Origin: Methylococcaceae bacterium
Lineage (GTDB): Bacteria > Pseudomonadota > Gammaproteobacteria > Methylococcales > Methylomonadaceae
DNA length: 32,994 nt
Assembly: GCA_006844585.1 (NCBI GenBank)
Contig: SPJM01000093.1
Coordinates: forward strand, 1 to 32,994
Direction of reading: 5' to 3'
Part shown: positions 20,839 to 32,470 of the stretch, one piece after another
Layout: the number at the start of each line of letters is the position of its first letter
How positions within the stretch are numbered: the stretch's first letter is position 1
Notes under the pieces: model-generated
What the model was told of the DNA's origin: nothing
What the model saw: only the letters and a program-made list of their open reading frames with translations
Database searches by the model: none
Program-made: the position numbers and the translations under genes

Positions 20839-21195
20839 TTAAATAAATCCCTGCTTAGTGATTCCGATAGAGAAAATATAGATAAAACACAAGATGGCGC
20901 CGGCAAAAGCAGCCCAACGCTTACCGCCTCGGTTACGCATCGCCATCACGCCCAATCCTACATAACATAGCAACACAATGAATTTACTGACAATCCATCC
21001 ATATTCTGCGGATAACCAACCACCATGAAAAACCAGCATAAAACCGCTAAGCAATAATAAAGTGTCAATTACATGCGGAGCAATTTTAAACAATTTTGTT
21101 TGTAATAAACTCGAATTGAATTGGGAAAGCGCTATACGGCCGACAAAACTGATAAGCGATGAAAAAATAAAAATAATATGTATAGTCTTTAGCAT
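20839..21195 (-). CDS. SirB2 family membrane protein
   Basis: 118 residues with four transmembrane helices (about 5-20, 43-58, 68-84, 94-112). The pattern LKTIHIIFIFSSLISFVGR, KIAPHVIDTLLLLSGFML and WIVSKFIVLLCYVGLGVMA is typical of SirB2 (COG3094), an inner-membrane protein of unclear function first seen as a regulator of invasion genes in Salmonella. AGAGGAAACC precedes the ATG. It is the last of four closely packed minus-strand genes that begin with lexA, so it may be SOS-induced here; no direct evidence. Confidence 0.88.
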   Translation of the reverse strand: MLKTIHIIFIFSSLISFVGRIALSQFNSSLLQTKLFKIAPHVIDTLLLLSGFMLVFHGGWLSAEYGWIVSKFIVLLCYVGLGVMAMRNRGGKRWAAFAGAILCFIYIFSIGITKQGFI

Positions 21196-21216: not shown

Positions 21217-21330
21217 TTAAATGGCAAATAATGATCCACCATTATATCTTTTCGTTAATGTCTGGCAAACAGGGTTAAACGGTTGCTCACATATTCTTAT
21301 CGGCAGCAGCAAGCACTGTATGCTTTTCAT
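21217..21330 (-). CDS. Micro-ORF (37 aa) in the lexA operon
   Basis: ATG 21330 overlaps the stop of the preceding 51-codon ORF by four bases (ATGA); the frame ends at TAA 21217-21219, 21 nt before sirB2. The product begins MKSIQCLLLPIRICEQPFN, has three cysteines and no recognised domain. The support is position and overlap only: it fills the otherwise empty gap in a tightly packed operon. Confidence 0.45.
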   Translation of the reverse strand: MKSIQCLLLPIRICEQPFNPVCQTLTKRYNGGSLFAI

Positions 21331-21482
21331 TGCCAGCTTAGCCCCAAGGCCATAAATAAACTGACTAAGGAAAACGTAACTGCATTTTGAAAAATTTCAT
21401 CCCAATCCATCTGTAACGATTCATTCATTATCTCTCTCACCCGGTTCGTTTGTTGATCTTTCATGTGAATTCGGTTTTTCAT
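21327..21482 (-). CDS. Small protein (51 aa) directly downstream of lexA
   Basis: It begins 9 nt after the lexA stop, with AGGGG five bases before ATG 21482, an excellent ribosome site. The product starts MKNRIHMKDQQTNRVREIMN, a charged N-terminal half, and continues with WDEIFQNAVTFSLVSLFMAL, a hydrophobic C-terminal helix that could enter the membrane. No family was recognised. By position it should be controlled by LexA. In other bacteria lexA is often followed by small SOS genes such as the division inhibitor sulA; a similar role would be a guess. Confidence 0.7.
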   Translation of the reverse strand: MKNRIHMKDQQTNRVREIMNESLQMDWDEIFQNAVTFSLVSLFMALGLSWQ

Positions 21483-21491
21483 ATTATCCCC

Positions 21492-22115
21492 TCATTTATA
21501 ACTTCGCATTTGGCCGACTAACACGCCTTGAATTTCAACCTGACTCGGCTGATAATGCATAGCCGGCATTGATTCATTCGCTGGAATTAACACAGTCTCA
21601 TTCGGAGCTTGTTGAATCGTTTTCAAGGTCGCTTCCACTTTATCAATTAAAGCGACGACGATTTCTCCGTTTCGGGCATAAGCTCTTTTTTCAATGACTA
21701 CCCAGTCGCCATCAAATATGCCGACTTCTATCATTGAATCGCCTCTCACTTGCAAGATGAAGCAAGGCATTTCCGTCTTCAGTTGTTCAGGAACGGTCAT
21801 GTAACGAATATTTTCAATTGCTTCTATCGGCTGTCCGGCGGCTATCGTTCCGACTAAAGGCAATTCATCCGCCGTTTCCAGTATTTGTTCGCTGACCTCA
21901 GTCAGCCGAATACCGCGTTGTTTGCGATTAGGCGCTTCCACCAACCCTGCTTCGATTAAACCTTGAATATGCTTATGCAAAGAACCTCTGGACTTTAAGC
22001 CCATCGCGCTACAAATTTCACTTAGCGTGGGTGGATGTTCAAAATGATTTTGGTTTTCCAACAAGAAGTTATACACTTCTTGTTGTTTACGTGTGATTGC
22101 TGCTTTTGTTTTCAT
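21492..22115 (-). CDS. lexA: SOS repressor LexA
   Basis: The 207-residue repressor of the DNA-damage response cleaves itself when RecA is activated. The N-terminal winged helix-turn-helix runs from about 5 to 72 (RKQQEVYNFLLENQNHF, PPTLSEICSAMGLKSRGSL). The scissile Ala93-Gly94 is in GTIAAGQ, Ser127 in RGDSMIE, and Lys165 in ATLKTIQQ. AAGGAG is well placed before ATG 22115. The recognition helix (SRGSLHKHIQGL) differs from E. coli LexA (which has SPNAAEEHLKAL), so the operator is likely not the CTG-N10-CAG box. It heads a likely operon with the two micro-ORFs and sirB2, divergent from an M20 gene. Confidence 0.96.
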   Translation of the reverse strand: MKTKAAITRKQQEVYNFLLENQNHFEHPPTLSEICSAMGLKSRGSLHKHIQGLIEAGLVEAPNRKQRGIRLTEVSEQILETADELPLVGTIAAGQPIEAIENIRYMTVPEQLKTEMPCFILQVRGDSMIEVGIFDGDWVVIEKRAYARNGEIVVALIDKVEATLKTIQQAPNETVLIPANESMPAMHYQPSQVEIQGVLVGQMRSYK

Positions 22116-22118
22116 AAT

Positions 22119-22168
22119 GTTCTCCTTTTGTTCTGTGTCAATATAAAAAAAGAACGAATAGAAAACAA
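22119..22168 (-). promoter_or_regulatory. Candidate lexA promoter with repeated GAAC/GTTC half-sites
   Basis: On the minus strand, TTGTTT (22163-22168) and TATATT (22140-22145) are 17 nt apart, a fair sigma-70 promoter. GAAC occurs as a direct pair with a 7-nt gap (22119-22122 and 22130-22133), and GTTC inside the spacer (22152-22155). No E. coli-type SOS box is present. The GAAC pair overlaps the ribosome site, so it may be coincidence. Confidence 0.4.
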
Positions 22169-23694: not shown

Positions 23695-24207
23695 TTAAAC
23701 AACCGCATTTAATTCTACATTTTCATAAAGTCGTATTTTCTTCCAGCCGACAAATTTAGTATCGTCAAAAGGAAGATCATGATCAATTGCATGTTCATAA
23801 CAACTACGGAACAAGCGAGCTGTTCTAAAAGCATGTAATTCATCATCCGCCGTTACCGTCTCTACGTTACCGACTTGAAATGTTTTGTTGCGTGATTTGC
23901 CATCTTTCACCCAGAAAACAGTGTAGCAAAGATAGCTCTTATCTTTTCTGTGATCATATTTAATGGTTCTGGATACGCCTGTAACCCCGGTTGTGGTCTT
24001 GTTTTTCGGCGGTTTCAAAAATCGCGTTCGGCTGCCTTTTAATACGACCAACATCTGATCGCGCCAAGTAATGGCTGCCTGTAATGACTTTGTTTTATTT
24101 CCCCATAATTTATGAGAAAAATAGCGACTACTCTCTTTACCGCGTCTGACTATGCGTACTTGATAACCAAATGCATCCGGTTCTGTTATATGTTTTACTT
24201 TTGCCAT
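23695..24207 (-). CDS. AP2-like DNA-binding domain protein, copy A
   Basis: 170 residues with two consecutive AP2-like units: residues ~6-53 (ITEPDAFGYQVRIVRRGKE, SRYFSHKLWGNKTKSLQAAI, WRDQ) and ~69-145 (TTGVTGVSRTIKYD, NKTFQVGNVET, ELHAFRTARLFRSCYEHAI). In phage and bacteria such domains occur in homing endonucleases, integrases and stand-alone regulators. No nuclease motif is visible, so a DNA-binding regulator is more likely. It is closely related to copy B at 31934-32470. It is divergent from the peroxiredoxin gene, with 243 nt between starts containing a perfect dyad. Its target is unknown. Confidence 0.8.
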   Translation of the reverse strand: MAKVKHITEPDAFGYQVRIVRRGKESSRYFSHKLWGNKTKSLQAAITWRDQMLVVLKGSRTRFLKPPKNKTTTGVTGVSRTIKYDHRKDKSYLCYTVFWVKDGKSRNKTFQVGNVETVTADDELHAFRTARLFRSCYEHAIDHDLPFDDTKFVGWKKIRLYENVELNAVV

Positions 24208-31933: not shown

Positions 31934-32470
31934 TTACTTCACAAATGGCGACTGTAACCCCGAACTGTCATATAAACGTTCTTTTTTCCAGTTTTTGTAT
32001 TTTGTCGGATCAAACTGCGACTCTAAGCCATTGGCCCGGTACATTTCATATTCATGACGAAACCTGATCGCTGTTCTAAACGCGTGCAACTCCTGGTCTG
32101 CATTAATCTCTTCCATTCTGCCGACATGAAAGGTCTTGGTGTGGCCTTTACCGTTTAAGCGCCAATGACAACTATAGATCAAACTCCGCACATCCCTTCT
32201 TTTATCATATTGTATCGTTCGAGACACGCCGGTCACCCCGGTGCTGATCTTATTCGGAAAAATCCGCGTCATCTGCTGATAAGTCGGTTTTGATGAAAAC
32301 AAAACCAAAGTTTGATCCCGCCAATTGATTGCGCTTTTTAAAGCCTGCTGTCTTCCGCCCCAGAGTTTGTGAGAAAAATAACGGCTGTATTCTTTTTTAT
32401 TTCTCACGATTCTGACTTGGAAACCTTTATTGTCAGGTTCGGTAATCTGTTTGTATTTTTTCTCAGTCAT
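31934..32470 (-). CDS. AP2-like DNA-binding domain protein, copy B
   Basis: 178 residues, plainly paralogous to the protein at 23695-24207: the same ITEPD start, VRIVRNKKEYSRYFSHKLWG, AINWRDQ, then STGVTGVSRTIQYDKRRD, TKTFHVGRMEEINADQELHA and FRTAIRFRHEYE. Two AP2-like units in tandem and no nuclease motif. The copies keep order and length but differ in linkers, so this is an old duplication rather than a fresh transposition. It stands alone, with ~470 nt of AT-rich non-coding DNA upstream that could include operators. Confidence 0.8.
   Translation of the reverse strand: MTEKKYKQITEPDNKGFQVRIVRNKKEYSRYFSHKLWGGRQQALKSAINWRDQTLVLFSSKPTYQQMTRIFPNKISTGVTGVSRTIQYDKRRDVRSLIYSCHWRLNGKGHTKTFHVGRMEEINADQELHAFRTAIRFRHEYEMYRANGLESQFDPTKYKNWKKERLYDSSGLQSPFVK

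Follow-up and report, generated by a model that had tools for sequence, protein, structure and literature searches.

SOS-induced proteins with a single membrane span, many of them encoded next to lexA, have been described as division inhibitors (PMC6851548 and PMC4211646, in the excerpts available of both papers). Inhibitors of this kind that adjoin lexA, such as SosA of Staphylococcus and YneA of Bacillus, are known in Gram-positive bacteria, and SosA is described in the same excerpt as requiring its extracellular C-terminal part (PMC6851548). In Caulobacter, SidA and DidA are very small, damage-induced proteins of the inner membrane; SidA, an SOS inhibitor of 29 residues, is under LexA control (PMC4211646, in excerpt). 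SulA of Escherichia coli (PF03846), also controlled by LexA, is a cytosolic protein that binds FtsZ (PMC6851548, in excerpt). Two further small SOS proteins are TisB of E. coli, described as a membrane toxin of 29 residues, and DdrR of Acinetobacter, a corepressor whose gene faces a umuD-type repressor gene; the excerpted account calls DdrR unique to Acinetobacter and mentions no anchor for it (PMC11332147).

Here we describe a protein of 51 residues, called S below, whose gene lies directly behind lexA in a contig of a Methylococcaceae bacterium (SPJM01000093.1, assembly GCA_006844585.1); the 32,994 nucleotides analysed are referred to as the window. S resembles SosA, YneA and the other lexA-adjacent inhibitors in its small size, its one predicted span, its position beside lexA and its predicted LexA control. 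This likeness is one of layout and control, and no sequence kinship was seen. S lies downstream of lexA, whereas sosA is divergent from it, and in S the span is followed by almost nothing and preceded by the conserved part, the reverse of what is described for SosA. With SidA and DidA it shares a Gram-negative host, very small size, and predicted inner-membrane location and damage induction, although it has 51 residues where SidA has 29; its predicted box, GTTC-N7-GTTC, is that reported for the Alphaproteobacteria (PMC8565304, in excerpt). S would be similar to SulA in its proposed role and its LexA control, but it has no PF03846 match. Like TisB, S is a tiny, SOS-related, predicted membrane protein; unlike a TisB-like toxin, it has a conserved soluble motif and a variable anchor. 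To our knowledge, SidA has no N-terminal motif of the S type and is not encoded beside lexA.

The lexA locus and its small reading frames

Four ORFs of the window follow one another on the minus strand in the order lexA, S, a 37-codon ORF and sirB2. The features of the locus are as follows.

22150-22168, minus strand: second predicted LexA box, inverted, GTTTTCTATTCGTTC (pattern search, 3 mismatches)
22117-22135, plus strand: first predicted LexA box, GTTC-N7-GTTC, immediately ahead of the lexA start codon (pattern search, 3 mismatches; motif derived from lexA promoters)
21492-22115, minus strand: lexA (Pfam PF01726 and PF00717, TIGR00498), of a type unlike that of E. coli, with the helix SRGSLHKHIQ
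21488-21493, minus strand: predicted ribosome site of S, GAGGGG, overlapping the lexA stop codon (read from the sequence)
21327-21482, minus strand: S microprotein gene, 51 codons (conserved behind lexA; purifying selection; hydropathy)
21217-21330, minus strand: 37-codon ORF, overlapping S by ATGA, judged not to be a gene (no homologue, no conservation)
20839-21195, minus strand: sirB2 homologue (Pfam PF04247), 21 nt past the 37-codon ORF

An earlier note on this DNA had described two micro-ORFs in a packed lexA-sirB2 operon. Its coordinates and spacings proved correct when the sequence was re-read (9 nt between lexA and S, the ATGA overlap, 21 nt before sirB2), as did the good ribosome site that it had claimed for the 51-codon ORF, with GAGGGG ending five bases before the ATG. 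The two ORFs fared differently. The 51-codon frame has homologues behind lexA throughout the family; a tblastn search of the fetched loci with the 37-residue product returned only copies of the window itself, and in a DNA alignment with six relatives conservation drops where the 51-codon frame ends. A clear ribosome site was not found for the 37-codon ORF either, the nearest GGGG lying 11 nt 5' of its ATG. Lack of conservation of the frames in relatives had been named beforehand as an observation that would overturn the proposal; the longer ORF is conserved there and the shorter is not. With no homologue in the fetched loci and no Pfam match, the 37-codon ORF was rejected both as a gene and as a relic of sulA. 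The tight packing is true of the window, where sirB2 is probably co-transcribed with S, but it is not general: 8 of the 107 distinct S genes, that of the window among them, are followed by sirB2 within 600 nt, and we rejected lexA-S-sirB2 as a generally conserved operon.

Elsewhere in the window, a pair of related proteins, 170 and 178 residues long and without an assigned role, is encoded on the same strand (23695-24207 and 31934-32470), with the shared motif ITEPD..G.QVRIVR..K..SRYFSHKLWG.

A conserved family of small proteins

We searched 201 genomes of the window's family, the methanotrophic Methylococcales, and obtained homologues of S, the best at E 1.3e-17; most of the stronger matches stand directly behind lexA. 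A profile built from 35 members (A1) matched 126 of the 201 family genomes at E <=0.01, spanning 24 of 29 genera. In a sample of 201 genomes of the order it matched 100 at E <=0.1, a few of them weakly. Among 369 genomes of the class, a wider profile of 21 members (A3) had matches in 11 at E <=0.01, and nine of these 11 fall outside the order. Among 299 genomes of the phylum the window alone was convincing; four other matches (E 0.0007-0.004) were reading frames without the HMxDQ motif and were set aside. A search of phage sequences with S gave a single match at E 10. The fetched loci yielded 107 distinct S proteins, which form the set for the counts of anatomy and linkage. In all 142 close pairs of S (pairs that are not independent) dN/dS is below 1, with a median of 0.12, and S is by this measure under purifying selection. 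Such conservation goes far beyond chance and shows the 51-codon ORF to be a genuine gene. Its product founds a family, conserved and so far unnamed, that is shared by methane oxidisers and some of their relatives.

S is present in the laboratory strains Methylotuvimicrobium buryatense 5G and M. alcaliphilum 20Z. Copies on the plasmid MEALZ_p (WP_014133136.1) and on a plasmid of Methylobacter sp. YRD-M1 (WP_268121189.1) are both entered as 'hypothetical protein'; in relatives, S has thus been annotated but given no function.

Layout of the S protein

The family is characterized by the N-terminal motif [KR][IV]HM[QRH]DQ[VI]xN[RK][IV]xx[IL]M, usually followed by a C-terminal hydrophobic anchor; in the window protein the motif reads HMKDQ..NRV..IM and precedes a hydrophobic helix. 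Across the 107 proteins, conservation is concentrated in this soluble motif (Q10 100%, M7 and D9 98%, M19 93%, H6 89%, N13 85%) and the C-terminal part is variable. The conservation of M7, D9 and Q10 is partly built in, because the set was seeded with the pattern M.DQ; a later filter removed none of 185 profile matches. For the 51-residue product, the charged half and the hydrophobic helix proposed earlier were confirmed, the former N-terminal and the latter C-terminal.

Judged by hydropathy only, 88 of the 107 proteins have a predicted membrane span (a 17-residue stretch with a Kyte-Doolittle mean >=1.6). All but one of these 88 have at most 8 residues after the span, and none has K or R there, a layout that suggests a tail anchor with the N-terminus in the cytoplasm. 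We consider it likely that S is tethered to the membrane. The other 19 proteins have no clear span; 16 of them come from genus g13, whose span-less proteins end in a basic tail, for example YKKRPVEQIVYVLKNIM. AlphaFold2 predicted one featureless helix over residues 4-50 (pLDDT 79, pTM 0.40), which is uninformative on a target, and the helical periodicity of the conserved residues is not significant (P 0.43). A copy of S that faces umuDC in M. buryatense 5G (L234, G010:C1:1628282) has only 34 residues and has lost the hydrophobic anchor; this copy may be decaying.

Known families and SulA

Searches of Pfam, NCBIfam, PHROGs and PDB gave no convincing match for S and none common to its members, the best matches of single members being E 0.003 in PHROGs and E 0.018 in Pfam; membership of a known family was therefore set aside. 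The window's own 51-residue protein has no Pfam match and a chance-level NCBIfam match only (E 0.14); its neighbours LexA and SirB2 match Pfam. The SulA model PF03846 does not match S. It matches 2 of 101 family genomes, has no match in the window's genome, and finds E. coli alone among 14 control genomes. Some 200 bases away from each of the two family matches (G038 and G061) there is a second LexA (38-39% identity); these matches are presumably ImuA-like proteins.

Linkage of S to one type of LexA

Across the 201 genomes of the family we scored window-type LexA as a full LexA at E <1e-60 and S by profile A1. Both are present in 123 genomes and neither in 74; one genome has this LexA without S, and three have S without this LexA (Fisher P 3e-50, relatedness not corrected). 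The genome with LexA alone (G194) has a weak S match behind its lexA (E 0.024). Of those with S alone, G115 has a weaker LexA match (E 6.7e-16); G009 and G059 carry S without window-type LexA, and the box is absent upstream in the loci read. The absence of both from 74 genomes is an apparent joint loss; three of these genomes (G016, G043 and G066) are listed in the window's own genus. Within the set of distinct S genes, 76 of 107 start just after lexA, the place beside the repressor gene taken to mark the SosA, YneA and SidA functional kind, with gaps of -26 to 132 nt and a median of 17 nt. Two loci of genus g10 (L096 and L098) have an S gene with neither an adjacent lexA nor a box, within about 1 kb of a divergent uvrA-like gene.

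Outside the order, window-type LexA (54-62% identity) is present in 7 of the 9 genomes that bear S, three of which also have an E. coli-like LexA. The remaining two are G542 (85% complete), with S and an E. coli-like LexA only, and G408 (87% complete), with S and in which LexA was not found. Two types of LexA are seen side by side in three Gammaproteobacterial genomes (L252-L258 versus L259, L262 and L264): one has the SRGS helix and mostly a GTTC-N7-GTTC box upstream, whereas the other is E. coli-like with an FRSPNAAE helix and in two loci precedes imuA/imuB-like genes.

Predicted LexA operators

The region upstream of lexA has the consensus TTGTTCTC-T[AT]TT-TGTTCT[TC], a GTTC-N7-GTTC direct repeat of the form reported as the LexA operator of Alphaproteobacteria (PMC8565304, in excerpt). 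A predicted box within 6 mismatches of it precedes lexA in 81 of 84 distinct upstream regions, and GTT[CT]N7GTTC occurs exactly in 74 of the 84; the lexA of the window has two boxes, at 22117-22135 and 22150-22168, each 3 mismatches away. A scan of the window's whole genome is weak on its own, because it gave 7 matches and the reversed control 4. Some 160 nt ahead of a large helicase-like gene in that genome (G000:C213:2571, L227) stands a box of the LexA type, and the gene is possibly a further member of the SOS set.

The 31 S genes that are unlinked to lexA served as an independent test of the operator. The repeat occurs within 250 nt upstream of 18 of 27 of them, at 72-132 nt and in sense orientation, compared with 16 of 746 other 250-nt windows from the same loci. 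One of the four unlinked genes left out at first also has it, so that 19 of 31 carry the box and in 12 of 31 it was not seen upstream. All six distinct unlinked S genes from outside the order have the repeat (L174, L175, L176, L177, L178 and L246), and there the box also stands upstream of window-type lexA in 6 of 7 genomes.

Additionally, 14 genomes hold 46 strong sites within 2 mismatches of the consensus (reversed control, 4). As many as 27 of these lie at most 1 kb upstream of S, where 0.02 would be expected, and between them they cover 23 of the 28 S genes listed. Thirteen of the other 19 sites were read, with genes named by eye: five adjoin umuD-type genes (L239, L280, L285, L289 and L295), one adjoins integrase genes (L283), and the others fall inside or close to unrelated genes. 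Of 10 sites within 3 mismatches in M. buryatense (1 control match), 5 serve S genes, namely three lexA-S pairs, one stand-alone S and the 34-residue S facing umuDC. On MEALZ_p S faces umuD, and on the YRD-M1 plasmid lexA-S faces umuDC.

The co-occurrence with LexA, the adjacency to lexA and the shared predicted boxes together strongly predict SOS control, and S is almost certainly an SOS-regulated gene. The earlier note had predicted SOS induction from the placement of the gene. On sequence grounds that prediction stands and now goes beyond placement, since many copies away from lexA carry the lexA-type operator. Word searches of open papers found no published account of the S family or of LexA operators in Methylococcales; in excerpt, PMC12911358 mentions lexA in a Methylotuvimicrobium genome and PMC3765255 describes other SOS components.

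Proposed function of S and its alternatives

We infer the following course for the induction, membrane insertion and topology of S. DNA damage would lead to cleavage of window-type LexA and thereby derepress the lexA-S pairs and the stand-alone S genes. The protein of about 50 residues would accumulate with its C-terminal helix in the inner membrane and its N-terminus in the cytoplasm, and the conserved peptide HMxDQVxNRIxxIM would be the working part. This peptide would most likely dock on the cytoplasmic face of the division machinery and delay septation, so that S would do the job that SulA does in E. coli. The combination of a conserved soluble motif with a variable anchor fits a tethered binding peptide better than a pore. 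Since SOS-induced single-span proteins elsewhere are division inhibitors and SulA is nearly absent, a division checkpoint is our first choice; it is drawn by analogy with the lexA-linked inhibitors, from the near absence of SulA and from the anatomy of S. We put division inhibition, with its hypothetical target, at or slightly short of an even bet, and give an even chance to the whole explanation, namely that S is a LexA-repressed, SOS-induced, tail-anchored checkpoint inhibitor of division that replaces SulA. Several findings count against it: the unlinked S genes without a box, the weak box scan of the window's own genome, the two genomes with S but without window-type LexA, the 19 proteins without a span, the lack of significant periodicity, the featureless predicted helix, a sequence that points to no division protein, and the layout of S, which is opposite to that of SosA with its required extracellular part (PMC6851548, in excerpt).

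The tight tie to one LexA type leaves room for a role of S as a partner of that LexA, either as a corepressor or by keeping LexA or its fragments at the membrane and thereby shaping the SOS response or making it last longer, in the manner of an anchored DdrR. Co-occurrence in the family is nearly perfect and extends to 7 of 9 S-bearing genomes outside the order, and DdrR, encoded facing umuDAb, offers a precedent in that it binds the repressor and aids repression (PMC11332147, in excerpt). However, plain operon linkage would also yield co-occurrence, a membrane anchor is odd in a corepressor, S persists in G009 and G059, which lack this LexA, and the incomplete genomes G542 and G408 have an E. 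coli-like LexA only and none found, respectively; we regard a partner role as rather unlikely. Less likely again is the reading in which Gammaproteobacteria hold a second LexA lineage with a direct-repeat GTTC-N7-GTTC operator, with S, the most constant SOS output, acting as a membrane-tethered feedback partner of LexA, coupling the timing of the SOS response to the membrane or divisome, and moving with lexA and umuDC on plasmids.

An SOS-induced toxin of the TisB kind, depolarising the membrane and making cells dormant, would suit the small size, the hydrophobic C-terminal helix, the SOS control and the plasmid copies. In such a toxin a conserved membrane helix would be the active part; in S it is the soluble N-terminal motif that is conserved, and the hydrophobic part is variable and absent in 19 of 107 proteins, which makes this reading improbable. 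A role of S in error-prone repair, as a membrane tether or helper of UmuDC, seems to us very improbable: S or lexA-S does face umuD genes on two plasmids, as the 34-residue form does in M. buryatense, but the shared operator accounts for this neighborhood, and for 76 of 107 S genes the linkage is to lexA. That the 51-codon ORF is a chance frame has a probability close to nil; nothing but its shortness and its lack of a Pfam or NCBIfam match speaks for this, and against it stand the family-wide conservation, the purifying selection, the copies away from lexA and those already annotated as hypothetical proteins in relatives.

The favoured reading of S as a division checkpoint protein bears on the biology of these methane oxidisers. 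SulA is matched in only 2 of 101 family genomes, which raises the question of how they restrain division during DNA damage. A gene of about 50 codons that accompanies this lexA in almost all genomes possessing it, has 27 of the 46 strong boxes of 14 genomes upstream of it and is present in M. buryatense 5G and M. alcaliphilum 20Z makes that question directly testable. If the reading is true, lexA-linked membrane microproteins would occur in Gammaproteobacteria as well, in a reversed layout with the conserved cytoplasmic motif first and the anchor last.
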